Shown here in pieces: positions 47,442 to 63,680 of a DNA stretch of 64,000 nt (position 1 is its first letter; every line of letters begins with the position of its first letter). The DNA comes from Nitrospinota bacterium. GTDB lineage: Bacteria > Nitrospinota_A > UBA7883 > JACRLM01. A program made the position numbers and the translations under genes. A model generated the notes under the pieces. The model was not told the DNA's origin, did not search any database, and was given only the letters and a program-made list of their open reading frames with translations. The stretch covers positions 62,001 to 126,000 of the forward strand of contig JACQXA010000001.1 in NCBI GenBank assembly GCA_016208975.1, read 5' to 3'.

Positions 47442-47741
47442 TTAATCAATATTGCTGTCGCATGAGGTCCCGGCGGCAATCCATCTTCTGATCAGCCTGC
47501 CCGCCAGTTGGTCCAGCGGCGCGGGAACCCACGGGATGAACATGCGCGGGTTTGCCAAGGCGCCGCACATGTAGCGTTTTTCGCCATCGCTCCAGATGAG
47601 GGCGCCGCATGTCCCGCGAAACTTGAGGAAAAGCGCGATACCCACCGGGCACGGTTCCGCAATACAACATACCCCGCATCCGTTGCATGGCTCGCCTGTG
47701 GCTGGTTTTAGGGGCGCTTTGGGATTGATGACAGTATTCAT
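47442..47741 (-). CDS. YkgJ-like cysteine-cluster protein
   Basis: A 99-residue protein with the metal-binding pattern PCNGCGVCCIAEPCPVG (five cysteines within 15 residues) and two further cysteines in GTCGALIWSD and RYMCGALANP. This fits the YkgJ-type family that is predicted to chelate zinc or an iron-sulfur cluster; the function is unknown. The ATG at 47741 begins right before the conserved part; the longer frame from 47831 would run into a REP-like repeat. No operon partner: the neighbouring gaps are filled with repeats. Confidence 0.75.
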   Translation of the reverse strand: MNTVINPKAPLKPATGEPCNGCGVCCIAEPCPVGIALFLKFRGTCGALIWSDGEKRYMCGALANPRMFIPWVPAPLDQLAGRLIRRWIAAGTSCDSNID

Positions 47742-47773
47742 TGTGATATTTTCGCATGATTCAGCGATAAAGA

Positions 47774-47800
47774 ACCGTGGTCGGGCGACCACGGGGAAGC
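47774..47800 (-). repeat. REP-like palindrome, inverted orientation
   Basis: CCGTGGTCGGGCGACCACGG followed by GGAAGC, upstream of the YkgJ-like gene. Confidence 0.8.
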
Positions 47801-47810
47801 GAATGTTGTC

Positions 47811-47831
47811 ATGCCGGACTTGATCCGGCAT
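47811..47831 (-). repeat. 21-bp GC-rich palindrome, copy 3 (inverted)
   Basis: The reverse complement of the palindrome at 39853-39873. It is followed by TAGGCGCTTTCGCGCCTTCC, another hairpin, at 47871-47890. Confidence 0.7.
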
Positions 47832-48264: not shown

Positions 48265-51200
48265 CTATACGTCTTTGCGGCCCCAGTTCTTGCCATCCAC
48301 CATGAAGAACAGTACCGGTATCACGATAAGCGTGAGGGCCGTGGATGCCGTCATGCCGAATATAAGCGCCCAGCTCAAACCGCTCCACACCGGGTCCGCG
48401 GCTATCACCGCGGAGCCCAATATGGCCGCCGCGGCGGTGAGGGCTATGGGGCGGAACCTTATGGCTCCAGCCTCTATAATGGCATCCTCCACTGTGGCGC
48501 CTTCGTTCTTCTTGTCCAGTATGAATTCCAGAAGCACTATGGAGTTTCGCACAACTATTCCCGAAAGGGCGATGATGCCTATCATCGAGGTGGCCGAAAG
48601 GTAAACCCCCACAAGCGCGAAGCCGGGCATGATGCCTATCATGGCCAGCGGGATGGAACCCATGATCACCAGCGGTATCATGAACGACCTGAACCGCCCA
48701 ACGAGGATGAGGTATATCAGCACCACCGCCACCACCATGGCCATGCCCAGGTCGCGCATGACGTCCCAGGTGAGTTTCCATTCGCCGTCCCACACTATGG
48801 TGTAGCCTTCGGGTAACGGGTTTTTCCAGAAATGGATGATCATGTCCAGCACGGCGTAAACCGAGCCCCTGTCGCCCATCTCGCCGAACACATACACTAC
48901 CGGCTCCAGGTTCTTGTGATACAGCGGCCGCTCTATCTCGCCGGGAATGATGGACACCAGCTCCGACAGGGGCGCGATAACCCCCTGCGGGCTCTTGATA
49001 TACATCTTGTCCAAGTCGTCCGGGCTGGAGCGGGAGCCTTCCGGGTAGCGCATGAAAATGCCCACCGGGGTTTTCGCGTCGGTCACGTGCAGGGTGCTAA
49101 CCACCGCGCCATTAACGCCCACGCGAAGCTCACGCACGATGTCTTCGGTGGATACGCCGAGATATGTGGCTTTTTCCTTATCCACCTTCAAGTAATACTT
49201 GTGAGTTTTCTCCTTAACGGTGTCGTCTATGTCCGTAACCTCGCTGGTTCCGGCGAAAGCGTTTTTAACGTCCGTCGCCAGCTCGCGGGCCTTGTCGTAA
49301 TCCGGGCCGTATATTTCCGCCACCAGGGTGGAGCGCACCGGCGGGCCGGGCGGGTCTTCCAAAACCTTGATGTTGGCGTTGAACGGTTTGCCCATCTCGT
49401 GAAGCCTGGGCCGGATGGCCAGAACTATTTCTTCCGACGAGCGGGGCCTGTCCGCCTTGTCCGAGAGGTTCACGCGGATGTCGGCGAAATGCTCCTGGTT
49501 GCGGAATGAGCTTCCGCGCAGGAGGCCGTTGAAATCAATTACGGAACCCACGCCCACGAAGGTTTCGTAATCCGTCACTTCCGGGACTTTTGCAAGATAC
49601 GCCCCCACGGCCCGGGCTAGCTCGTCGCTCTTTTCGTGGACAGTGCCGTTGGGCATGTCTATGGTTACAAGGAATGTGTTCTTGTTGGCCTTGGGCAACA
49701 TGCGGAACTTAACAAGCTGAACCATGGGCATCGCTATGGCCACGAAGAACGCCACCAGTACGATAGTTAAAAACTTCATCCGTTTACGGTAATCGGTGAG
49801 CAGGGGGAGCATTATCTCCCGGTACTTTTTATAAAGCTTCTGCCCGGCCAGAGGTTGCGCTGAATGGTCGTCATGCACCTTTATAAGCCTGTAACTCGCC
49901 CACGGGGTAACGATGAACGCCACCGCCAGCGACACCAGCATGGCCACCGGCACGTTGAACGGTATGGGCGCCATGTAAGGGCCCATCATGCCCGTGACGA
50001 ACGCCATGGGGATGAACGCCACGATGACCGTCAACGTGGCCAGCACCGTGGGGGAGCCTATTTCGTTAACAGCTTCTATGGCGGATTTCATCCTGTCCTG
50101 CGCGCCCATCTTGTAGTGGCGGTAGATGTTTTCCACCACCACAATTGCGTCGTCCACCAGCAGGCCCAGCGAAAGGATTAACGCGAACAGGGTGATGCGG
50201 TTTATGGTTTGGCCGTAAACCATCCCCACGCCGAGGGTTACAAAAAGGGTGAGGGGTATGGCGATGGCCACTATCATGGACTCGCGCCAGCCCAGGGCGA
50301 AGTAGAGCAGGGCCACCACCACCAGTATGGATATAACCAGGTGGAAAACCAGTTCGTTCACGGCGTGGTTGGCCTTCTCGCCATCGTTCCGGGTGATGTG
50401 GGCCTCCACACCCTGGGGTATCACACCCGATTTTTTCAACTCCTCCACGCGGTCAATTATCTTGTCGGCTATCACCACCGCGTTGAGGCCCCGCTTTTTG
50501 GCGATGGCCACGGTTACGGCGGAGCGTTCGGATTTGTCCTGCTCTTTTGCGGCGGGGCCGAAACCGATACGGGTTTTGGCGTTGGTGTCCTCGAAACCAT
50601 CTTCCACCTGGGCGATGTCTTTCAGCAACACCAGGCTACCGCCATAATTTGCCACCACCACATTGCCCACATCCTCCGCCGTCCGGAGGAAATCTCCGGT
50701 CTCCACGAACTGGAGTATGTCGTCTTTCGGGAAATCGCCAACGGGCAAGTTGGAGTTGCTGATGCTGATAGCGGCGGCTATCTGCTGGGCGTTCAGGTTG
50801 TACTGGCTCACCTTCTCCGGGTCGAACACCACGTTCACCTGCCGTTTCCTGCCGCCGATAATGTTTGGGTTGGCCGTGCCGGGGATGCGCCGCAGATAGT
50901 CCAGCACATCTTCGGCGGTTTTGCGTAGCTCGCCGTCATTTTCAGTTTTCGAAGAGAGGGTAACGGCCACCAGCGGCACGTCGTCCACGTCCACAGGTTT
51001 TACTATGGGCTGGCTGGCCATTTCCGGCTTGCGGTCCAGGTTGCTCATTATCTTGTCGTACAGCCTCACCAGCGAGTTTTCCTTGTGCTCGCCCACGTAG
51101 AACCGGACGGAGACTATGGATAGCGAGTCCATAGAGACGCTGTAAACATACTCCACCCCCGGCAGTTCCCAGATGAGCGCCTCCATGGGTTTGGAGATAT

Positions 51201-51414
51201 GCTCCTCCACCTCTTTGGCCGAAGCGCCGGGATACTGGACGAACACGTTGGCCGCCGGAACCGTGATTTGCGGATTTTCCTCGCGGGGGGTTATCACAAG
51301 GGCCAGCAGGCCGAAAAAAGTCACAAAAACCATCAGCAGGATGGTTAGCTGGGAATTTATAAAATATCGCGCCAGCCGCCCGGCGAAATTCATTGAGTCA
51401 TTCTTTTCTTCCAT
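48265..51414 (-). CDS. RND efflux permease (AcrB/MdtB-like)
   Basis: A 1049-residue inner-membrane proton-driven transporter with the twelve-helix RND layout: a first helix (LTILLMVFVTFFGLLALVI), a periplasmic porter loop with FVQYPGASAKEVEEHISKPMEALIWELPGVEYV, the helix-4 motif LSLGLLVDDAIVVVENI with the paired Asp of proton relay, and the second porter loop and helices 8-12. It has no CzcA-type heavy-metal signature that I can see, so a hydrophobic-drug, lipid or small-molecule substrate is more likely. It is encoded with its adaptor and TolC protein and with a thioredoxin and DUF2892 gene under a sigma-54 promoter. Confidence 0.93.
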   Translation of the reverse strand: MEEKNDSMNFAGRLARYFINSQLTILLMVFVTFFGLLALVITPREENPQITVPAANVFVQYPGASAKEVEEHISKPMEALIWELPGVEYVYSVSMDSLSIVSVRFYVGEHKENSLVRLYDKIMSNLDRKPEMASQPIVKPVDVDDVPLVAVTLSSKTENDGELRKTAEDVLDYLRRIPGTANPNIIGGRKRQVNVVFDPEKVSQYNLNAQQIAAAISISNSNLPVGDFPKDDILQFVETGDFLRTAEDVGNVVVANYGGSLVLLKDIAQVEDGFEDTNAKTRIGFGPAAKEQDKSERSAVTVAIAKKRGLNAVVIADKIIDRVEELKKSGVIPQGVEAHITRNDGEKANHAVNELVFHLVISILVVVALLYFALGWRESMIVAIAIPLTLFVTLGVGMVYGQTINRITLFALILSLGLLVDDAIVVVENIYRHYKMGAQDRMKSAIEAVNEIGSPTVLATLTVIVAFIPMAFVTGMMGPYMAPIPFNVPVAMLVSLAVAFIVTPWASYRLIKVHDDHSAQPLAGQKLYKKYREIMLPLLTDYRKRMKFLTIVLVAFFVAIAMPMVQLVKFRMLPKANKNTFLVTIDMPNGTVHEKSDELARAVGAYLAKVPEVTDYETFVGVGSVIDFNGLLRGSSFRNQEHFADIRVNLSDKADRPRSSEEIVLAIRPRLHEMGKPFNANIKVLEDPPGPPVRSTLVAEIYGPDYDKARELATDVKNAFAGTSEVTDIDDTVKEKTHKYYLKVDKEKATYLGVSTEDIVRELRVGVNGAVVSTLHVTDAKTPVGIFMRYPEGSRSSPDDLDKMYIKSPQGVIAPLSELVSIIPGEIERPLYHKNLEPVVYVFGEMGDRGSVYAVLDMIIHFWKNPLPEGYTIVWDGEWKLTWDVMRDLGMAMVVAVVLIYLILVGRFRSFMIPLVIMGSIPLAMIGIMPGFALVGVYLSATSMIGIIALSGIVVRNSIVLLEFILDKKNEGATVEDAIIEAGAIRFRPIALTAAAAILGSAVIAADPVWSGLSWALIFGMTASTALTLIVIPVLFFMVDGKNWGRKDV

Positions 51415-51457: not shown

Positions 51458-52294
51458 TTACCGCCACCGGGCTTTGCCGTACATGCCGGCGCGCAATCCC
51501 TCGGTGAGAGGCAGGTCTATCCTCACAAGGAAACTGTGGCTGGCCCTGTCTCCGGCGGGCACAATCTGCGCCACCGTGCCGCTGATGGTTTTATTTGGCA
51601 GAGCGTCCACCGTAACCTCCACCTTGTCGCCCACACCTATCAGGTTGATGTCCGACTCTTTCACGCTGGTCTCGAACCGCAGGTTCTTCGTGTCCGCCAC
51701 TTTCACCACCGGCTGGCCGGGGGAGGTAAGCTCACCCACTTCCACCGATTTGCTTTCGATAACTCCATTTATGGGGGAAACGATATTGGTATAAGCGAGA
51801 TAAACCTGGGCTTTGCGAAGTTCCGCCTCGGCCACGGCCACACCGGCTTGGGCCCTTTGCATGGCCGTGTTCGCCTCGTCATATGCGCTCTGGGTGGTGG
51901 AACCCTGGCTCAAAAGCCTTTTCTGGCGGTCGAAGCCGAGGGTGGCGTTTTCGTAGGCCGCCTTGGCCGAATCCAGATGCCCGCGGGCCAGCGCCACATT
52001 GGCGCCCAGTTCGCCATCGTCCAGTTTCATTATCACCTGGCCCTTTTTAACCGGTGAGCCCAAATCGCCGGATATCCGTACAACCTGGGCCGAAATCTTG
52101 GACGACAGGGTTATGGAGGCTTTGGAGGCCACCACTCCTGTGGAAAGGATCAACGGCTGAGGAGCGGGCGCCGGAGCCTGCGCTGGTTGAGGGGCTTTTT
52201 GAGGTGCGGGTTGCGCCTGACCATGGGCTAGGGGCGCGGCTAGCGATAGGCCGGTTATGGCCGCGAAGAACGTGTTCATCCACAAAGATTTCAT
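51458..52294 (-). CDS. RND efflux periplasmic adaptor (membrane-fusion protein)
   Basis: A 278-residue HlyD-family adaptor that links the RND permease to the TolC protein. A signal peptide (about 5-25) is followed by a Pro/Ala/Gln-rich segment (about 28-50), the lipoyl half-motifs GDLGSPVKKGQVIMKLDD and IVSPINGVIESKSVEVGELTSPGQPVVKVAD, and between them a helical hairpin (RGHLDSAKAAYENATLGFDRQKRLLSQG...). The membrane-proximal domain at the end is short, so the protein is smaller than AcrA. Its start codon shares one base with the TolC stop (TAATG), indicating coupling. Confidence 0.9.
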   Translation of the reverse strand: MKSLWMNTFFAAITGLSLAAPLAHGQAQPAPQKAPQPAQAPAPAPQPLILSTGVVASKASITLSSKISAQVVRISGDLGSPVKKGQVIMKLDDGELGANVALARGHLDSAKAAYENATLGFDRQKRLLSQGSTTQSAYDEANTAMQRAQAGVAVAEAELRKAQVYLAYTNIVSPINGVIESKSVEVGELTSPGQPVVKVADTKNLRFETSVKESDINLIGVGDKVEVTVDALPNKTISGTVAQIVPAGDRASHSFLVRIDLPLTEGLRAGMYGKARWR

Positions 52295-53661: not shown

Positions 53662-53994
53662 TCAGCCTACGGCCGCGGCGCTGTCTATAAAATCCACCAG
53701 CGCCGGTTTTGGCACGGCGCCCACAATCTGGTTGGCCACTTTGCCGTTCTTGAACAGGATGAGCGTGGGGATGCCCCGGATGCCGTACCGGGCCGGTATC
53801 TGGTAGGCCGCCTCGGTGTCGCATTTGGCTATTTTCACCTTGCCCGCGTATTCACCGGCCAGCTCTTCGATAATGGGGGCGATCATCCGGCAGGGGCCGC
53901 ACCAGGCCGCCCAGAAATCCACCAACACCGGAATATCGCTGTTCAACACTTCCGTCTGGAAATTGTCGTCGTTCACATGCACCACTTTAGACAT
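53662..53994 (-). CDS. trxA: Thioredoxin (efflux-operon copy)
   Basis: A 110-residue thioredoxin with the classical active site WCGPC in FWAAWCGPCRMIAPIIEELA and the cis-Pro in IRGIPTLILFKNG. No signal peptide is present, so it works in the cytoplasm on disulfides or as an electron source. The placement between a DUF2892 membrane protein and TolC is unusual and indicates that the operon links thiol redox state to export. It has 16-base and 28-base gaps to its neighbours. The genome region has another thioredoxin at 35717-36043, with WCAPC. Confidence 0.93.
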   Translation of the reverse strand: MSKVVHVNDDNFQTEVLNSDIPVLVDFWAAWCGPCRMIAPIIEELAGEYAGKVKIAKCDTEAAYQIPARYGIRGIPTLILFKNGKVANQIVGAVPKPALVDFIDSAAAVG

Positions 53995-54009: not shown

Positions 54010-54219
54010 TTATAGATCCTTCGAACGGACATGGGATTTAACACCGGCTTTGACCAAAATAGACTCCATCAGGCACCACCGGGTAAAGCCATGCTGGAAA
54101 AGATTCAGCCCGACGAAGGCCGTGAGGAACAGCCAGTAGGGGCTGTATATCTGGGAAAGGGTCAGCGAAACCAATATAAAAGTTCCCGCAATAACATGGA
54201 TCATCTGTTCAGCGTACAT
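54010..54219 (-). CDS. DUF2892 small membrane protein
   Basis: A 69-residue protein with two membrane segments: MIHVIAGTFILVSLTLSQI and YWLFLTAFVGLNLFQHGFT, followed by RWCLMESILVKAGVK. This is the DUF2892 (YgaP transmembrane) pattern with its conserved Cys; YgaP is a membrane rhodanese, and free DUF2892 proteins often lie next to sulfur-transfer or thioredoxin genes. The ATG at 54219 has GGAG seven bases upstream, and the longer frame to 54273 would cross the predicted sigma-54 start site. First gene of the efflux operon. Confidence 0.82.
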   Translation of the reverse strand: MYAEQMIHVIAGTFILVSLTLSQIYSPYWLFLTAFVGLNLFQHGFTRWCLMESILVKAGVKSHVRSKDL

Positions 54220-54256
54220 ATCAAAACTCCAAAACGGTACTCTTGACCAAGTATAT

Positions 54257-54272
54257 AGCAACGAGCTTGCCA
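54257..54272 (-). promoter_or_regulatory. Sigma-54 promoter of the DUF2892-thioredoxin-RND operon
   Basis: The minus strand reads TGGCAAG-CTCG-TTGCT: GG (-24) and GC (-12) separated by ten bases, and only one clear departure from the consensus TGGCACG-N4-TTGCT. The predicted start at about 54246 is 27 bases before the DUF2892 ATG. Confidence 0.8.
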
Positions 54273-54366
54273 TAATGGGGCGCTGGCGTAAGACTAATAT
54301 AATCGCGTAGGTACAGAGTCAAGCGATGAAAGGCCGCGTGATGGATGTTTCAGCAAGCAACATAAA

Positions 54367-54388
54367 TGATGCAACATATGTTGCATCA
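54367..54388 (+). promoter_or_regulatory. Perfect 22-bp palindrome, candidate upstream activator site
   Basis: TGATGCAACAT and its exact mirror on the other strand form a perfect 22-bp palindrome, with an extra GTTGCAT half-site at 54389-54395. It lies 120-140 bases upstream of the predicted sigma-54 start and 26 bases beyond the stop of the sigma-54 activator gene, typical of a binding site for that activator's Fis-type domain. Confidence 0.75.
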
Positions 54389-54413
54389 GTTGCATAAAGG
54401 GGAGGGGAGTTGG

Positions 54414-55763
54414 CTAATGGATGTTAAGGGTTTTTATCTTCCGCCAGAGGGTGGTGCGGTTTATGCCGAGCATTTTAGCGGCCTTGGATTTTTGACCGGC
54501 GGTGATTTCCAGCGCCTCTTTTATGCGGGCGGGTTCATCCCCAGGCAGGTCGGTTAATGGCGTTGCCGGTGGTTTACCGGGGTAGGCGGTGGTCCGCAAA
54601 ATCTCTTCCGGCAGGTCTTCCGGCTCTATAAGGCCCCCTTCGCAAAGGACGAAAGCCTGGGCGATGGCGTTTTCCAGCTCCCTTATGTTCCCCGGCCAGC
54701 GGTACCGGGCCATGGCTTTCATGGCCTCCCGGGAGATCCCTTTTATGGGTTTGCCGGTTTCGTTTCTCTGTTTTTCGATAAAGTGGTCCGCCAGCAGGGT
54801 TAAATCGTCTATCCGTTCCCTTAACGATGGCAGGTTTAAGCGCACCACTTTAAGCCTGTAATACAGGTCTTCCCGGAACAGCTTTTTCTCCACAAGTTCT
54901 TTCAGGTTTTGGTTGGTGGCGGATATTATCCGCACGTCCACGTTGCGTTGCTGGGTGTCGCCCACTCTTTCTATGAGCTTGTCTTGAAGCACGGTGAGCA
55001 GTTTTACCTGGGTGGAGGGTGGGATTTCCCCGATTTCGTCCAGAAATATGGTTCCGCCGTGGGCCAGCTCGAACCGGCCGATGCGGTCGCGATACGCTCC
55101 GGTGAAAGCGCCTTTCACATGGCCGAACAGTTCCGACTCCAGCAACGTTTCAGACAGCGCCGCGCAGTTCACCTTGATGAACGGCTCATCCCGCCGGCCC
55201 GATTTTTTATGGATGGCCTCGGCGACTAACCCTTTGCCCACGCCGGATTCGCCTTCTATCAAAACCGGCGCTTCGGCCTTGGCCACTTTATCTATAAGGG
55301 TGTAAACCTCCTGCATCTTGCGGTTGCGGCCGATGAGCTTGAAATAGGAAGGGTGGGATTCCAGCCTTGTCTGCAGTTTTCTTATCTCGGAAATGTCATG
55401 GATGATGAGCATCACGCCGCCTTCTTCCCCCGCGGAGTCTCGCAGGATGGCGGTGGACATGATTACGGTGCGTTCGTCGCCGGTGTGGTCTATGAACTTG
55501 AAGGAATAGTTCTTTATAGGTTTCTTCTCTCTCACGGTTTCCTGGAGGATGTCCTTGATGTCCACCAGCATCTCGTCGCAGAAACAGGATTTGCCCAGCG
55601 CCTCCTGCTTGGACACGCCGAAAAACCCCAGCGCCGCCTCGTTGATGTTTATCACCTTCATATGGCTGTCCAGCACGATTATGCCGTCGTGGACGGAGTT
55701 GAAAACCGCCTCCAGGTTGTCCTTGAGCGCCAGACAGGCTTCGATGCGTTTGGTTTCATCCAT
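54414..55763 (-). CDS. Sigma-54-dependent PAS/AAA+/Fis transcriptional activator
   Basis: A 449-residue NtrC-family activator. Residues 10-125 form a PAS domain with CFCDEM (possible redox or metal site), 135-380 the AAA+ module with Walker A GESGVGKG (171-178), the sigma-54 contact loop GAFTGA (218-223) and Walker B TIFLDEIGE, and 410-447 a Fis-type helix-turn-helix (GQKSKAAKMLGINRTTLWRKIKTL). There is no receiver domain, so it senses its signal through the PAS domain rather than by phosphorylation. It lies upstream of and on the same strand as the efflux operon, whose promoter has the -24/-12 pattern and a palindrome. Likely its direct activator. Confidence 0.92.
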   Translation of the reverse strand: MDETKRIEACLALKDNLEAVFNSVHDGIIVLDSHMKVININEAALGFFGVSKQEALGKSCFCDEMLVDIKDILQETVREKKPIKNYSFKFIDHTGDERTVIMSTAILRDSAGEEGGVMLIIHDISEIRKLQTRLESHPSYFKLIGRNRKMQEVYTLIDKVAKAEAPVLIEGESGVGKGLVAEAIHKKSGRRDEPFIKVNCAALSETLLESELFGHVKGAFTGAYRDRIGRFELAHGGTIFLDEIGEIPPSTQVKLLTVLQDKLIERVGDTQQRNVDVRIISATNQNLKELVEKKLFREDLYYRLKVVRLNLPSLRERIDDLTLLADHFIEKQRNETGKPIKGISREAMKAMARYRWPGNIRELENAIAQAFVLCEGGLIEPEDLPEEILRTTAYPGKPPATPLTDLPGDEPARIKEALEITAGQKSKAAKMLGINRTTLWRKIKTLNIH

Positions 55764-55815: not shown

Positions 55816-55937
55816 AATAAAAAAGACCGCCAAGCCCATCGCTGGAACTGGACGGCCCAAGGTTTACCCCGTGAAGGGGTAAGCCTGCGAAGTAAACTTC
55901 TTGTTATGAATTCCGCGCAGGCTCCTATCTGATACAG
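55816..55937 (-). ncRNA. tracrRNA of the type II-C CRISPR system
   Basis: Plus-strand bases 55903-55934 match the reverse complement of the CRISPR repeat with 25 consecutive identities and two further differences that become G-U pairs, so a minus-strand RNA carries the anti-repeat. Downstream on that strand lies a stem TTACCCC/GGGGTAA (plus 55861-55885), a second hairpin and TCTTTTTT near 55820 as terminator. A promoter with TTGCGA and TATATT precedes it. The RNA would be about 120 nt; it pairs with pre-crRNA and anchors Cas9. Confidence 0.85.
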
Positions 55938-55942
55938 CCAAA

Positions 55943-55971
55943 AATATAATATACTCTTATCCAATTCGCAA
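55943..55971 (-). promoter_or_regulatory. Promoter of tracrRNA, divergent from cas9
   Basis: On the minus strand TTGCGA (55971-55966) and TATATT (55948-55943) are 17 bases apart, placing +1 at about 55936, right before the anti-repeat. On the plus strand TATAAT at 55945-55950 may be the cas9 -10, but no matching -35 is seen. Confidence 0.6.
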
Positions 55972-55996
55972 TGATTTTCTTGCAAGGGGGATAGTC

Positions 55997-58978
55997 ATGA
56001 AAATACTGGGGCTGGATATTGGCACAAATTCCATCGGTTGGGCGGTCATCGAACGGGATGACGAAAAACTGGACGACGTGGCCGGAACAGGCAAGATATT
56101 GGGCGCCGGAGCGCGGGTATTCACCGCGCCGGTGGAGGATAAAACAGAAGCGCCCAAGAATCAGGAGCGCCGGGCAAAACGAGGCGCGCGGAAAATCCTT
56201 GCACGAAGAAAAATGAGACGTGAACATCTAACCAACATCTTGGTATCCACCGAAATGTTGCCTTCCGATAAAGATGAGCGGGAAAAACTATTGAACACGA
56301 TAAATCCGTATAAAGCCAGAGCCGAAGGATTGGATGGCAAAATATCTTTGTACGAGCTGGGCCGCGCCCTGTTCCACATGAACAAACGGCGGGGTTTTAA
56401 GAGCAACCGGAATGCGGACAGAAAAGAAAAGGATAAAGATAAAAGCAAAGTCCTCGACGCCATTAAAGATCTTCAGGGAAGGATAGATCACAACGCCCGC
56501 ACCCTTGGAGAATACCTTTATAAACAAAATAACAGCCTGCTACGTAAACAGTACACCCACCGCAATATGTACGAAACCGAATTTGAGAAGCTATGGGCAA
56601 CACAAGCGGCTTTTCATCCGGAATTGACGCAAGAGCTTAAGATAAAAATCAACAAGGCCATATTCTTTCAACGTCCCTTAAAGTCGCAAAAAGGCCTTGT
56701 GGGCTTTTGCGAGCTGGAGCGGAAAATATGGCGGAAACCGGATGGTGGATTAATAGACAAAGGCCCGCGCCGGGCCGCCAAATCTCATCCGTTGGCCCAA
56801 AGGATAAGGATGCTTCAGGATGTTACAAACCTGAAGGTAAATGCCCAATCTCTTAAAAAAGATCAACTGAAAACGATCATCGAGGCTATTGACGGCAAGC
56901 AAAAGCTGACGTGGGCGCAGGTAAAAAAATCGGCGGGCATACACAAGGAAACAAAGCTGAACCTGGAGGAAACAGGCAAGAAGCATATTCCAGGCGATTA
57001 CACTTCTTTTAATATTGCTAAAGCGCTTGGGGCAAAGTGGCAGGCTCTGGACGTTACACAGCGTGAAAGTTTATATACCGACCTTACCACCATAGAAAAC
57101 GAAGCGGCATTAATAAAACGCCTCACAGAAGGTTGGGGCTTTTCAAAAGATGAATCGGAGGCGCTGGCAAAAGTAGAACTGGAGGATGGCTATGCCGCCC
57201 ATTCACTGAAAGCTATCAAAAAGCTTCTGCCTCACATGGAAGCCGGTTTAACTTATCCGGAAGCCAAAATAGCCGCTGGGTATGGCGGGGTAAGCGGCGC
57301 CAGCGAAGGATTTAATGTATTGCCGGAACCGCCGCAGGTACGCAACCCGGTTGTCCAGAAAGCTCTTTATGAAACCCGCAAGGTGGTAAACGCCATCATC
57401 CGCAAGTTCGGCAAGCCGGACATTATTCGCGTCGAGTTGGCTAGAGACGCAAAACAACCGAAAAAAGTTAAAGATGAACGGCACAAACAGATGCGTGACC
57501 GGGAAGCGGAAAATGAAACCATAGACGCCGAACTGAAAAATGAATTCGGCGTAGCCAAACCTACAAGAGAAGACAGGGACAAATACCGGTTATGGCTTGA
57601 ATGCAACCGCACAAGCCCATATTCCGGAAAAGCGATAGGCAAGCAGGAGCTGTTCACCGCCGATGTTCAGGTTGAGCATATCCTCCCTTGGCAAAAATCG
57701 CTGGACAATTCCTATATGAACAAGACGCTTTGTTTTCAGAAGGAAAATCTTGAGAAAGGGGACAACACTCCTTTTCAGGCATGGAGCCATGATGAACAAA
57801 AATGGGGTGAAATAGAAAAGAGAATAGAATCATTACCGCTGGCCAAACGCCGCCGCTTCTACATGACCGAAATTCCCGATGGTTTTCTTGACAGCCAGTT
57901 GACGGACACACGATATATCACAAAGGAGGTATGCGCCTATCTGAAATCAACAGGTGTCCGGGTGGACACAAACAAGGGCCTGTTCACCGCATGGTTGCGC
58001 GGCGAATGGGGTCTTTACGATATTTTGCCCAAGCGTAACTACGATTTGAAAGCGGGTAAGGACCGTTCCGATCATCGCCATCATGCCTTGGACGCGATAG
58101 TGATAGCCCTCACAGGCCCGTGGCAGGTACACATGTTTAGCAGGGCCACATCGCGCGGCGATGGCAGGTTGCGATATTCAAACTTCCCGGTTCCGTGGAA
58201 AGGATTCCGTGACGATGCGCAAGCCGCCATTGACGCAATCATCGTCTCCCATCGCGCCACGCGGAAAATACGGGGGGCGCTACACGAAGAAACTTCGTAT
58301 GGGGCGACATCGGAAAAAGGCGTTTTCGTCCGGCGAAAGACCATTGAGACCATGACATATGCCGAAGTGAAACGTATCCGTGATGAGCGCATTCGTGATT
58401 TGATCCTTAAACGGATTGAGGAGCATGGAGGCGATTGCAAGGCGGCGCTCAAAACTGAGTTTGTAATCGGAAAGCATTCCGTGAAAAAGGCCCGGCTACT
58501 TTACTCAATTAATAACGCTTTCCCAATATTGGACAAGAAAGGCAAAGAATACCGCTTTCTAGAATATGGAAAAAACCACCATATTGAAATAATCAAACCC
58601 AAATCATCCGGCAAATGGGAGGGATGGGAAGAAGGGGATATCGTGACTATGATGGAGGCGGCGCGGCGAGCAAGGCCCAGAAAAGGTGAGGAAAAACGCC
58701 CAATTATCAACACGATTTGCGGCCCGGATAATGAGCTTGTCATGTCACTTTCCATCAACGAAATGCTGAGGATGAACGTGGACGGTGATGTAAGGATATA
58801 TAGGGTTCAGAAGTTGTCCAAAGGATATTACGTTTTTAGAGAGCATTGCTCTGCTGGCACAGAAGATGAAACAAAGCCGGCAATGTTGCGAATTCAAAGT
58901 ATGGGCGCATTGATGAGTTACAAACCTGAAAAAGTGACGGTCTCACCTATCGGCGAGGTGTTCCCCGCCCATGATTAA
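55997..58978 (+). CDS. cas9: Cas9 endonuclease, compact type II-C
   Basis: A 993-residue RNA-guided nuclease, in the size range of type II-C Cas9. RuvC-I is LGLDIGTNSIGWAV with D7; an Arg-rich bridge helix follows (about 57-77, RRAKRGARKILARRKMRRE); RuvC-II has E480 in IIRVELARD; HNH has H561 in VQVEHILPW and the Asn-containing YMNKTLCFQKENLEKGDNTP; RuvC-III has HHALDA (H696, D699). All catalytic residues are present, so it should cut both strands. The C-terminal ~230 residues are the wedge/PAM-interacting part; the PAM cannot be read. AGGGGG precedes the ATG. The gene looks AT-richer than its neighbours, a sign of transfer. Confidence 0.97.
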   Translation: MKILGLDIGTNSIGWAVIERDDEKLDDVAGTGKILGAGARVFTAPVEDKTEAPKNQERRAKRGARKILARRKMRREHLTNILVSTEMLPSDKDEREKLLNTINPYKARAEGLDGKISLYELGRALFHMNKRRGFKSNRNADRKEKDKDKSKVLDAIKDLQGRIDHNARTLGEYLYKQNNSLLRKQYTHRNMYETEFEKLWATQAAFHPELTQELKIKINKAIFFQRPLKSQKGLVGFCELERKIWRKPDGGLIDKGPRRAAKSHPLAQRIRMLQDVTNLKVNAQSLKKDQLKTIIEAIDGKQKLTWAQVKKSAGIHKETKLNLEETGKKHIPGDYTSFNIAKALGAKWQALDVTQRESLYTDLTTIENEAALIKRLTEGWGFSKDESEALAKVELEDGYAAHSLKAIKKLLPHMEAGLTYPEAKIAAGYGGVSGASEGFNVLPEPPQVRNPVVQKALYETRKVVNAIIRKFGKPDIIRVELARDAKQPKKVKDERHKQMRDREAENETIDAELKNEFGVAKPTREDRDKYRLWLECNRTSPYSGKAIGKQELFTADVQVEHILPWQKSLDNSYMNKTLCFQKENLEKGDNTPFQAWSHDEQKWGEIEKRIESLPLAKRRRFYMTEIPDGFLDSQLTDTRYITKEVCAYLKSTGVRVDTNKGLFTAWLRGEWGLYDILPKRNYDLKAGKDRSDHRHHALDAIVIALTGPWQVHMFSRATSRGDGRLRYSNFPVPWKGFRDDAQAAIDAIIVSHRATRKIRGALHEETSYGATSEKGVFVRRKTIETMTYAEVKRIRDERIRDLILKRIEEHGGDCKAALKTEFVIGKHSVKKARLLYSINNAFPILDKKGKEYRFLEYGKNHHIEIIKPKSSGKWEGWEEGDIVTMMEAARRARPRKGEEKRPIINTICGPDNELVMSLSINEMLRMNVDGDVRIYRVQKLSKGYYVFREHCSAGTEDETKPAMLRIQSMGALMSYKPEKVTVSPIGEVFPAHD

Positions 58979-59852
58979 ACGCACGGTGGAAATATCATCG
59001 GGCGCGGCGCATCTTTCCCTCCGGCTCAAACAGCTTTCAGTTAAACGGGAAGGGGAGGATGAGGTGACCGTCCCGCTGGAAGACCTTGGGATTCTCGTCA
59101 TCAGCCACCCCAATGTCTCCATCACCAACGCCCTTCTGGCGGAATGCGCCTCGCAGAACATAACCGTGGTGTTTTGTGACATGAAGCATAAACCAAGCGG
59201 TGCCATGTTGCCCTTCTCCGGCCATAGCACCCAGGCGGAAACCATGGAGGCGCAGATTGCCGCCAGCCAACCGGTGAAAAAACGGATATGGCAGTACATC
59301 ATCGAGGCAAAAATCGCGGGACAAGCCAAAGCGCTGGAGGCGTGTAGTGGCAAAGGAAAAGCGCTTTTCGAAATGGCCAAACAGGTGAAATCCGGCGACA
59401 CGGAAAACATGGAGGCCCGCGCCGCCCAATATTATTGGCCCCGGCTTTTCGGCAAGGATTTCCGGCGGGACAGGGAGGGCGGCCCGCCCAACTCCATCCT
59501 TAACTATGGCTATACGGTCATCCGCGCATCGGTGGCGCGCGCTCTTGTGGGCTCCGGGCTTCACCCTTCCTTGGGTGTGCATCACAGGAACCGTTATGAC
59601 AGCTTCCGCCTGGCGGACGACGCCATGGAACCGTTAAGACCAATAGTGGACATAAAAGCGTTCGAGTTGTGGAAGGCCAACCCCGAAGTTGAAGTGGAAA
59701 AAGAAACCAAACGGGCAATGCTGGAAATTCTTGGAATGGATTTGAGGTTTAACGGCGAAAAAGAGCCATTCATGGAAGCGATGGCCCATTACGCCGCCTC
59801 TTTGCGGCGCGCCATCGCCGAGGGAGCGCCGCTTACGATACCGGAATGGTAA
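58971..59852 (+). CDS. cas1: CRISPR integrase Cas1 (type II)
   Basis: A 293-residue Cas1 that, with Cas2, integrates new spacers. The type II form is recognised by TVEISSGAAHLSLRLKQLSVKRE, VPLEDLGILVISHPNVSITNALLAECA, FSGHSTQAETMEAQI, NYGYTVIRASVARALVGSGLHPSLGVHHRNRYDSFRLADDAMEPLRP, which hold the metal ligands (Glu of MEARAAQYYWPRLFG, His and Asp in the last segment). The ATG overlaps the cas9 stop by eight bases, so the two are translated together. Complete, without a fused reverse transcriptase or Cas4. Confidence 0.96.
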   Translation: MIKRTVEISSGAAHLSLRLKQLSVKREGEDEVTVPLEDLGILVISHPNVSITNALLAECASQNITVVFCDMKHKPSGAMLPFSGHSTQAETMEAQIAASQPVKKRIWQYIIEAKIAGQAKALEACSGKGKALFEMAKQVKSGDTENMEARAAQYYWPRLFGKDFRRDREGGPPNSILNYGYTVIRASVARALVGSGLHPSLGVHHRNRYDSFRLADDAMEPLRPIVDIKAFELWKANPEVEVEKETKRAMLEILGMDLRFNGEKEPFMEAMAHYAASLRRAIAEGAPLTIPEW

Positions 59853-60015
59853 CTATCTCGCGTTCCGCTCCGGTTTCTCCCCCTGCCAGAGGGGGAGTGG
59901 CTCCAAAGGAGCCGAGGGGGTGGGAGCTCAAAGCAAATCGCTTACCACTCCGGCGGCTTTGCCGCCACCCCTCCCCATAAAGGAGGGGAAAAGGTAACGG
60001 CATGGGGAAGGGTAA

Positions 60016-60348
60016 ATGACAAGCTTTGGGGGATTCCGCTCCATGTGGATTGTGCTTATGTTCGACCTTCCAGTGGTGGAGCCGGAAGAGCGCAAGGATG
60101 CCAACAGGTTCCGGAAAGATTTAAAAGGGTGCGGCTTTACCATGATGCAATTGTCGGTATATGTGCGGCACGCCGCAAGCGATGAGAATGCCCAGATTCA
60201 CCTGAAAAGGGTGAAAGGGCTTTTACCGCCAAAAGGTGAGGTGCGGGCGATATTGATAACCGATAAACAGTTTGAACGTATGCAGGTTTTCTATGGAAAA
60301 ATGCGCAAACCGGCGGAACGCGCCCCGGCCCAACTGGAGTTTTTATGA
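60016..60348 (+). CDS. cas2: CRISPR Cas2 (type II)
   Basis: A 110-residue Cas2 of the ferredoxin-like fold that dimerises and bridges two Cas1 dimers. It shows the type II pattern MWIVLMFDLPVVEPEERKDANRFRKDLKGCGFTMMQLSVYVRH and later VRAILITDKQFERMQVFYG; the Asp at the end of the first strand is present. GGAAGGG lies upstream of the ATG. It is separated from cas1 by 163 bases of repeat-like sequence with inverted CTCCCC/GGGGAG arms, which is unusual in a compact locus and suggests a later insertion. No csn2 or cas4 follows, so the system is type II-C. Confidence 0.94.
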   Translation: MTSFGGFRSMWIVLMFDLPVVEPEERKDANRFRKDLKGCGFTMMQLSVYVRHAASDENAQIHLKRVKGLLPPKGEVRAILITDKQFERMQVFYGKMRKPAERAPAQLEFL

Positions 60349-60360
60349 ATTGAAGGCTCT

Positions 60361-60400
60361 AATAGGCCCTGCAAAACCAACCGGTTCTGCAAGGCCTATT
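60361..60400 (+). other. 40-nt hairpin abutting the CRISPR array
   Basis: Nested arms AATAGGCC/GGCCTATT, TGCA/TGCA and AACC/GGTT form one 40-base hairpin between cas2 and the array. Its last three bases are the first three of repeat 1. It lies at the end of the array that is transcribed last (minus strand) and may terminate or protect the pre-crRNA. Confidence 0.6.
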
Positions 60401-60828
60401 ATATCAGATAGGAGCCTGCGCGGAATCCACAACAGTACATAGATGGATAGATACATGGTGTGTATTATATCAGATAGGAGCCTGCGCGGAATCCACAACC
60501 AGCGTTGCTTCTTTGCCCATCCCCGTCATATTATATCAGATAGGAGCCTGCGCGGAATCCACAACCGGTGTCCCCTAACTGCATGGCTTTCTCGGATTAT
60601 ATCAGATAGGAGCCTGCGCGGAATCCACAACAGCTGTAGATGGATAGATACATGGTGTGTCATTATATCAGATAGGAGCCTGCGCGGAATCCACAACTTG
60701 TTTGCGGCGGATGTCAATTTTTTTATTATTATATCAGATAGGAGCCTGCGCGGAATCCACAACCTCTACCGAATCACCGGATACTCTGCATAATTATATC
60801 AGATAGGAGCCTGCGCGGAATCCACAAC
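60398..60828 (-). CRISPR. CRISPR array, seven 36-bp repeats and six spacers
   Basis: Seven identical repeats start at 60398, 60464, 60530, 60596, 60662, 60728 and 60793; the spacers are 30, 30, 30, 30, 30 and 29 bases. On the minus strand the repeat starts GTTGTGGATTCC and ends TCTGATATAAT, like the Neisseria type II-C repeat, and the tracrRNA anti-repeat pairs with this strand, so crRNAs are transcribed opposite to the cas genes. TGATATAAT is an extended -10 promoter in every repeat. Spacers 1 and 4 share 24 bases. All repeats are intact, with no decayed end. Confidence 0.98.
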
Positions 60829-60832
60829 GGCT

Positions 60833-60892
60833 TTATGTTTCCCCGGAACCTAAAGGCCCCGGGAAAACATAAACCGGGGTCAGGGACCCCGG
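60833..60892 (+). other. Two hairpins beyond the distal end of the array
   Basis: TTATGTTT-CCCCGG pairs with CCGGGAAAACATAA (60833-60872), and CCGGGGTC-AGG-GACCCCGG (60874-60892) is a perfect 8-bp stem. This side is upstream of the array in the direction of crRNA transcription; no clear leader motif is visible. Confidence 0.5.
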
Positions 60893-63353: not shown

Positions 63354-63680
63354 TTAGTCCCCCAGCAGTTTGGTCCAGATAAACCAGCCCGCCACCAGGA
63401 AAAACGCCACCATAGCCATCAGGAAAGGCCCCGTGGCGGTGATGTTATCGTTTTTCAGGATGATTACCGTGATAAAAAGATAAGCCACAGCTGGAACATA
63501 AAGCAGAAGCTGTTGCCCGATATAGGCGGTCTTGTTATAGCTTATCAGACCGATGATTATTATTACCGGAACCAGCACATAAGGATTCACTATCAGGTCA
63601 TTCACGGTTATGGTGGTAAAAAACACCATAAGAGCTTCAAAATCGAAGGAATCAACGAAAGATCTTAACTGGTCGTACAT
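63354..63680 (-). CDS. Hypothetical three-helix membrane protein
   Basis: A 108-residue protein I do not recognise. It has three hydrophobic segments (about 33-48 YVLVPVIIIIGLISY, 54-75 LLLYVPAVAYLFITVIIL and 84-103 FLMAMVAFFLVAGWFIWT) and an acidic, aromatic N terminus with no signal peptide. It is the first of two genes on this strand, with the cupin gene 24 bases downstream. Probably an inner-membrane protein; no function is proposed. Confidence 0.65.
   Translation of the reverse strand: MYDQLRSFVDSFDFEALMVFFTTITVNDLIVNPYVLVPVIIIIGLISYNKTAYIGQQLLLYVPAVAYLFITVIILKNDNITATGPFLMAMVAFFLVAGWFIWTKLLGD

Follow-up and report, generated by a model that had tools for sequence, protein, structure and literature searches.

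The locus lies in a 64,000-nucleotide stretch of the genome of a Nitrospinota bacterium, called the window throughout, and places the gene for a sigma-54 activator next to an operon encoding a tripartite RND pump. Two related MAGs, G003 and G004, provide the corresponding loci L034 and L189 to which the features of the window were compared.

54414-55763, minus strand: sigma-54 activator (bacterial enhancer-binding protein) with PAS, AAA+ and Fis HTH domains, 449 aa (Pfam PAS_4, Sigma54_activat, HTH_8)
54356-54395, no strand assigned: operator array (predicted UAS) of about six TGCAACA-type half-sites, from comparison with relatives
54367-54388, no strand assigned: perfect 22-bp palindrome TGATGCAACATATGTTGCATCA, from a palindrome scan of the window
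54272-54257, minus strand: predicted -24/-12 (sigma-54) promoter TGGCAAGCTCGTTGCT, from a motif scan and counterparts in L034 (8188) and, weaker, L189 (1416)
54010-54222, minus strand: DUF2892/YgaP-like transmembrane protein, 70 aa (PF11127; start aligned with L034)
53662-53994, minus strand: cytoplasmic thioredoxin (WCGPC), 110 aa (PF00085, TIGR01068), 63% identical in L034
52294-53634, minus strand: TolC-family outer-membrane channel, OEP (PF02321)
51458-52294, minus strand: periplasmic adaptor, MFP, HlyD (PF16576, TIGR01730)
48265-51414, minus strand: RND permease (ACR_tran) of a distinct clade, with Asp421-Asp422 and Arg956 (PF00873 and clade comparison)

Family searches bore out every member of the DUF2892-thioredoxin-TolC-MFP-RND operon that a sequence-only reading of the window had described. 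Apart from the thioredoxin and DUF2892 genes themselves, no sulfur gene lies beside the operon, and neither SQR nor PDO is encoded there; an SQR homologue is present elsewhere in the same genome. About 430 bp after the RND gene and on the same strand is a gene for a 129-aa protein with a CxxCxxCC cluster (47445-47831), for which no match was found in Pfam or NCBIfam.

The same reading had placed a -24/-12 promoter with exact GG-N10-GC spacing at 54257-54272, and the motif scan confirms it on the minus strand. TGGCAAGCTCGTTGCT differs from the consensus TGGCACGNNNNTTGCW by one mismatch, retains the exact spacing and is the sole site with no more than one mismatch in the 64-kb window. The chance expectation for sites of such quality is about 0.73 per 64 kb over both strands and the promoter motif on its own is weak; it becomes convincing because its position and strand fit the 140-bp gap between activator and operon. 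Transcription is predicted to start near 54246. The promoter overlaps the first ATG of the listed DUF2892 open reading frame (54273), so the protein must start at ATG 54222 (70 aa), which is preceded by GGAG and corresponds in the alignment to the start of the L034 homologue (ATG 8240). The genome of the window encodes rpoN (PF04552 at C4:207456).

A perfect 22-bp palindrome had been noticed upstream of the promoter and is present at 54367-54388. Perfect palindromes of at least 22 bp are expected by chance at 0.017 per 64 kb, and the second longest in the window measures 16 bp. The operator array exceeds the palindrome, which has an N2 gap and overlaps a half-site pair with the N4 spacing seen in relatives (AGCAACATAAATGATGCA, 54356-54373). 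The gap between half-sites is variable (N0, N2 and N4), with two half-sites separated by N4 as the recurrent operator form across relatives. Positions 54356-54373 are the only match to TGCAACANNNNTGTTGCA with two mismatches or fewer in the 2.97-Mb genome of the window, and a single site in the G003 genome, the one at the promoter, matches the gapped pair of half-sites with no more than one mismatch; the best genome-wide N4 site falls at the operon promoter in both genomes. Enrichment statistics for the half-site array are optimistic, as overlapping half-sites are non-independent and the window itself served to define the motif. TGCAACANNNNTGTTGCA was rejected as a genome-scale regulon marker: its four exact matches in 385 genomes are close to chance level and two of them (G141, G158) fall within unrelated genes, and therefore the motif alone defines no regulon.

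The adjoining gene was confirmed by Pfam and by its sequence as the PAS-AAA-Fis activator with GAFTGA that had been proposed. Its AAA+ domain scores 243 bits against Sigma54_activat and carries the GAFTGA loop, a Fis-type HTH (HTH_8) and an N-terminal PAS_4 domain are found, and Pfam detects no receiver domain. With this domain content the protein is a bona fide enhancer-binding protein. Orthologues 60-64% identical occur in L034, L189/L051 and L036 (G003, G004 and G012), and a clear gap separates them from the next full-length relatives at 47% identity or less. Cys10, Cys60 and Cys62 lie within or beside the PAS domain, including a CFC motif, and by alignment all three are kept in every orthologue. 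A predicted PAS model (mean pLDDT 75, built from two sequences) confirms the PAS fold; assignment of a ligand from this structure was rejected, as many PAS folds match it without discrimination. The cysteines would be compatible with thiol sensing as well as with metal, heme or flavin binding and do not tell these apart.

Comparison with relatives carries the case for regulation. The window genome belongs to the same order as G003 and G004, which are deposited as Nitrospinaceae and Nitrospinota. In G003 (L034) the activator is followed by a 112-aa open reading frame and then by DUF2892-Trx-TolC-MFP-RND, and in G004 (L189) the same operon start is found some 3 kb away from the activator, miaB lies in the interval and the pump genes continue on another contig. 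Both relatives have a half-site array upstream of the operon, TGCAACGTGTTGCAACATTTGCGTTGCAACA in G003 and CGTTGCATAATGATGCATGTTGCT in G004, and the geometry is similar: the distance from the array centre to the -12 element measures 118 bp in the window, 110 bp in G003 and about 121 bp in G004, and from there to the ATG it is 36, 38 and about 43 bp, respectively. The promoter is CGGTCCACTTTTTGCC in G003, with exact GG-N10-GC, and TGGCCCGCATTTTGAA in G004, degenerate at -12 with TTGAA instead of TTGCA. No N4 site with two mismatches or fewer was found in the G004 genome. In G012 the activator is 63% and the pump 67% identical to those of the window, and in front of its MFP-RND pair there is neither an array nor a good promoter, and DUF2892 and thioredoxin are absent there. 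Conservation of palindrome and promoter in relatives, the comparison that the sequence-only reading had put forward as decisive, thus holds in part. The half-site array is kept in G003 and G004; the exact palindrome is rejected as the conserved element, since relatives retain half-sites and not the 22-bp palindrome, and the promoter is eroded in G004 and missing along with the array in G012. Sigma-54 control by the adjacent activator is nevertheless supported, with activator, operon, array, promoter-like element and geometry all kept in G003 and G004. This comparison supports a model in which the activator would bind the array and the operon would be transcribed by sigma-54 polymerase.

More distant activators offer independent hints. 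In G048 a thioredoxin gene and the gene for an activator 45% identical are divergently oriented, and TGCAACACTAGTGTTGCA and AGGCACGATCCCTGCT lie between them. In G047 an activator 47% identical is followed by a small open reading frame and then by genes for a thioredoxin-kinase fusion, for a RACo-like protein and for a protein that combines pyridine-nucleotide-disulfide oxidoreductase with rhodanese domains, and TGGCACGTGTATTGCC is found in the gap between activator and operon. Elsewhere in G047 (L185 5154-5400), the palindrome TGCAACACTGGTGTTGCA and a sigma-54-like TGGCAGACATGTTGCA stand before a row of genes, the first of which matches the glycine-cleavage H family; the site may be another target of a related activator. 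A 108-aa membrane protein without a Pfam match is encoded at 63354-63680 of the window, and a similar protein of 117 aa is found beside the G004 operon (L189 1728-2078).

On its other side the activator gene is separated from miaB by a compact CRISPR-Cas locus (window 55908-60834), the proteins of which were named by reading of the sequence.

55908-55934: anti-repeat (tracrRNA-like), matching the CRISPR repeat
55997-58978: Cas9-like protein
58971-59852: Cas1-like protein
60016-60348: Cas2-like protein
60397-60834: seven CRISPR repeats

Activator and miaB are immediate neighbours in G003 (L034) and have one small open reading frame between them in G004 (L189), and the CRISPR-Cas locus therefore looks inserted in the window. 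Two of its spacers (60440-60463 and 60637-60660) are identical over 24 bases and represent a duplicated spacer.

The permease belongs to an RND clade at 39-76% identity, with the other RND proteins listed for related genomes at 31% or less once one fragment of a clade member is set aside. Across 90 clade sequences Asp421 is invariant, Asp422 is present in 88 and Arg956 in all 90, compared with Asn, Lys or Cys at the Arg956 position (TM10) in 20 control RND proteins. When tested for the HAE-1 relay, the permease has the Asp-Asp pair of TM4, and the TM10 Lys is replaced by Arg956. Scores fall below the cut-offs of curated multidrug families (508 bits against 1250 for NF033617 and 422 against 1250 for NF000282), and the heavy-metal (HME) family was rejected with 318.7 bits for the CusA/CzcA model TIGR00914 against a cut-off of 701, which places the permease outside the curated families of heavy-metal and multidrug pumps. 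By record labels the clade spans Nitrospinota, Nitrospirae, Gamma- and Zetaproteobacteria, Cyanobacteria, Bacteroidetes, Verrucomicrobia and others, and it is widespread yet undescribed.

Gene neighbours up to 7 kb upstream and up to 5 kb downstream were counted for 91 clade genes and 20 control RND genes. DUF2892 lies near 46 of the 91 clade loci and none of the controls (Fisher p=6e-6), in a comparison with few controls, drawn from a narrower taxonomic range than the clade set, and with DUF2892 and sulfur-gene profiles seeded from the clade loci themselves. With the same controls at zero throughout, SQR is found near 14 of the 91 loci (p=0.07, alone not significant against the small control set), ArsR-type regulators near nine, MBL-rhodanese (persulfide-dioxygenase-like) proteins and CydA near eight each, and TauE near four. 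SQR was assigned by match to solved sulfide:quinone reductases (Aquifex SQR 3hyv, E=2e-104). In the family of the genome with L094 (labelled Methyloversatilis), the clade is represented in 28 of 38 genomes and SQR occurs at 14 of the 20 loci inspected. The clade-linked DUF2892 proteins share an invariant cysteine (47/47) in a KWCLM motif, which in the window reads RWCLM within TRWCLM. The window operon has the traits of the clade, namely about 40% or more identity, Arg956 and a linked DUF2892 with the invariant cysteine.

No activator relatives at E <=1e-92 were found in the family of G385, and therefore the switch is not general to the clade. Methylohalobius links the same clade to sigma-54 in a second and different way (L149 4952-10000): a clade pump operon is preceded there by genes for a sigma-54 activator of the receiver type and for a probable sensor kinase. 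Clade operons of Bacteroidetes (L126-L159, for example L148 13251-13553) encode a 100-aa protein with a weak match to the transporter-associated PG0541 family, and PG0541-like proteins occur in 21 loci of the whole set. L134, labelled Bifidobacterium breve, has a Bacteroidetes-type TolC-MFP-RND-PG0541-DUF2892 operon, and its label or binning is probably wrong.

Several described systems resemble parts of the locus. The sigma-54 activator FisR controls sulfide genes in Cupriavidus and Acinetobacter (PMC7315123, PMC12170894). FisR of Cupriavidus pinatubonensis and Acinetobacter baumannii shares with the window activator a non-receiver N-terminal sensory domain, AAA+ and a Fis HTH, a sigma-54 promoter adjacent to the activator gene, targets linked to sulfide and, in Cupriavidus, cysteines in the sensory domain. 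It differs in that its known targets are pdo, sqr and tauE with no RND pump, and the Acinetobacter protein lacks the regulatory cysteines. The window activator was not classed as FisR because its neighbourhood has neither sqr nor pdo and because the likeness is one of domain layout and description, not of sequence alignment. If the inference of sulfur sensing is right, the activator would work like FisR. The Azospira suillum PS operon Dsui_3440-3443 encodes an unknown protein, an RND pump, SQR and an MFP; it was flagged by Bar-seq as relevant to fitness under H2S and is highly expressed or induced during H2S oxidation, when a DUF2892 gene also rises about 10-fold, and its authors proposed metal-sulfide export (PMC5358917). 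Deletion of Dsui_3440-3443 left the H2S oxidation rate unaltered (PMC5358917), so the sulfide role in Azospira is stress-related at most. Like the window, this operon joins an RND pump and MFP, here tied to H2S, but it also contains SQR; its MFP-SQR-RND order matches that of clade member L120, and from this gene order the Dsui_3440-3443 permease probably belongs to the clade.

The DUF2892 protein shares its transmembrane domain with YgaP, but YgaP has a rhodanese domain and the window protein stands alone at 70 aa with PF11127 only and its own invariant cysteine. The pump resembles HAE pumps of the AcrB/CmeB type in its ACR_tran fold, tripartite partners and TM4 Asp-Asp, and departs from them with Arg956 at TM10 and with at most 31% identity to other RND pumps of related genomes; the TM10 residue in AcrB is Lys940. 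PG0541-associated RND operons of Bacteroidetes belong to the same RND clade and have DUF2892 downstream, but carry a PG0541-type small protein absent from the window and no thioredoxin. The claim that no pump of such composition is described under sigma-54 agrees with the open-access literature, the full texts of which yielded no described system joining an RND pump with sigma-54, DUF2892 or persulfide. In the paper on the D. vulgaris sigma-54 regulome, the main text contains no entry for efflux, TolC or thioredoxin.

We consider it more likely than not that the locus acts as a one-component switch that places a tripartite RND pump of a sulfide/sulfane-sulfur stress clade under sigma-54. The PAS activator would sense reactive sulfur, or a related thiol or redox change, via its conserved cysteines. 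The Fis-type HTH is predicted, with support from the comparison, to bind the TGCAACA half-site array some 115-120 bp upstream of the -12 element, and the AAA+ ring with GAFTGA would, as follows from the family, remodel sigma-54 polymerase at TGGCAAGCTCGTTGCT. The DUF2892-Trx-TolC-MFP-RND transcript would then be made, the pump may export sulfur-derived or sulfide-generated toxic species, and at the inner membrane the thioredoxin and Cys-bearing DUF2892 may deal with thiols or persulfides. The PAS domain had been read as a sensor of a thiol, metal or redox signal; context narrows this to sulfide or sulfane sulfur, which is favoured because the PAS cysteines are conserved and the clade is linked to SQR, persulfide-dioxygenase-like proteins, CydAB and DUF2892. 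The signal would then be sulfide or sulfane sulfur sensed by the cysteines and the pump would relieve such stress. The published behaviour of the Azospira operon under H2S is in line with this reading, and FisR supplies a precedent for sigma-54 activation of sulfide genes. The sulfide link itself draws on homologues at 40-50% identity in other phyla and is best regarded as an association by homology. The further proposal of the sequence-only reading, that export is coupled to thiol repair, found no support, as thioredoxin is in the operon only in close relatives and near few distant loci.

Other explanations give the same domains and sites a different purpose. A resistance pump for metal, or for metal-sulfide, arsenic or mercury, would have PAS cysteines that bind metal and a thioredoxin and DUF2892 that handle thiol damage. 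The CFC motif with conserved Cys10, the ArsR-type regulators near 9/91 clade members and the suggestion of metal-sulfide export by the Azospira authors (PMC5358917) are consistent with such a pump, but the CusA/CzcA score (318.7 against 701) and the TM4 Asp-Asp pair are not, and the SQR, persulfide-dioxygenase-like and CydAB neighbours indicate sulfide itself; we regard it as unlikely. Similarly doubtful is a general multidrug or xenobiotic pump under sigma-54, in which the PAS domain would bind an organic ligand as in aromatic-responsive regulators. Scores far under the multidrug cut-offs (508 of 1250) and a separate clade linked, unlike control RND loci, to DUF2892, SQR and persulfide genes weigh against it, even though the permease is of HAE type with the Asp-Asp pair, its best NCBIfam matches are multidrug permeases and the predicted PAS model resembles ligand-binding PAS domains, including toluene and 1,2,4-TMB complexes (5hwv, 5hww).

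It is quite improbable that the protein is a general oxygen or redox activator with a heme or flavin PAS domain and that the pump is switched with anaerobiosis, the sulfur link being indirect because sulfide and low oxygen go together. Matches to the PAS model do include the flavin PAS of NifL and the heme PAS of FixL, and CydAB, a low-oxygen oxidase, is found near clade pumps; the SQR, persulfide-dioxygenase-like and TauE neighbours are specifically sulfur-linked, however, and the PAS cysteines are conserved in all four orthologues. The regulatory sites themselves could be misread, if the palindrome served another DNA-binding protein or ended the activator transcript and the promoter match were due to chance. 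About 0.7 promoter sites of equal quality are expected per 64 kb and the palindrome begins only about 26 bp past the activator stop codon, but the palindrome is rich in A+T and has no T run, the N4 site is found nowhere else in the genome, and two relatives have both array and promoter together with the activator, which makes this explanation very improbable.

Beyond the sulfide-stress switch that we favour, one could suppose that the Arg956/DUF2892 clade is a dedicated sulfane-sulfur exporter across both membranes, wired in Nitrospinota to a persulfide-sensing activator and sigma-54. Its cargo might be polysulfide or low-molecular-weight persulfides, with thioredoxin and DUF2892 passing or reducing persulfide at the pump. 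We offer this extension as speculation with a modest chance of being right. To our knowledge, RND pumps have been studied almost wholly as drug and metal exporters. The recurrence of the clade beside SQR, persulfide-dioxygenase-like proteins and cytochrome bd across phyla suggests that outward pumping has been overlooked in sulfide tolerance, and the window presents this in a compact, testable version with one activator, one operator, one promoter and one operon.
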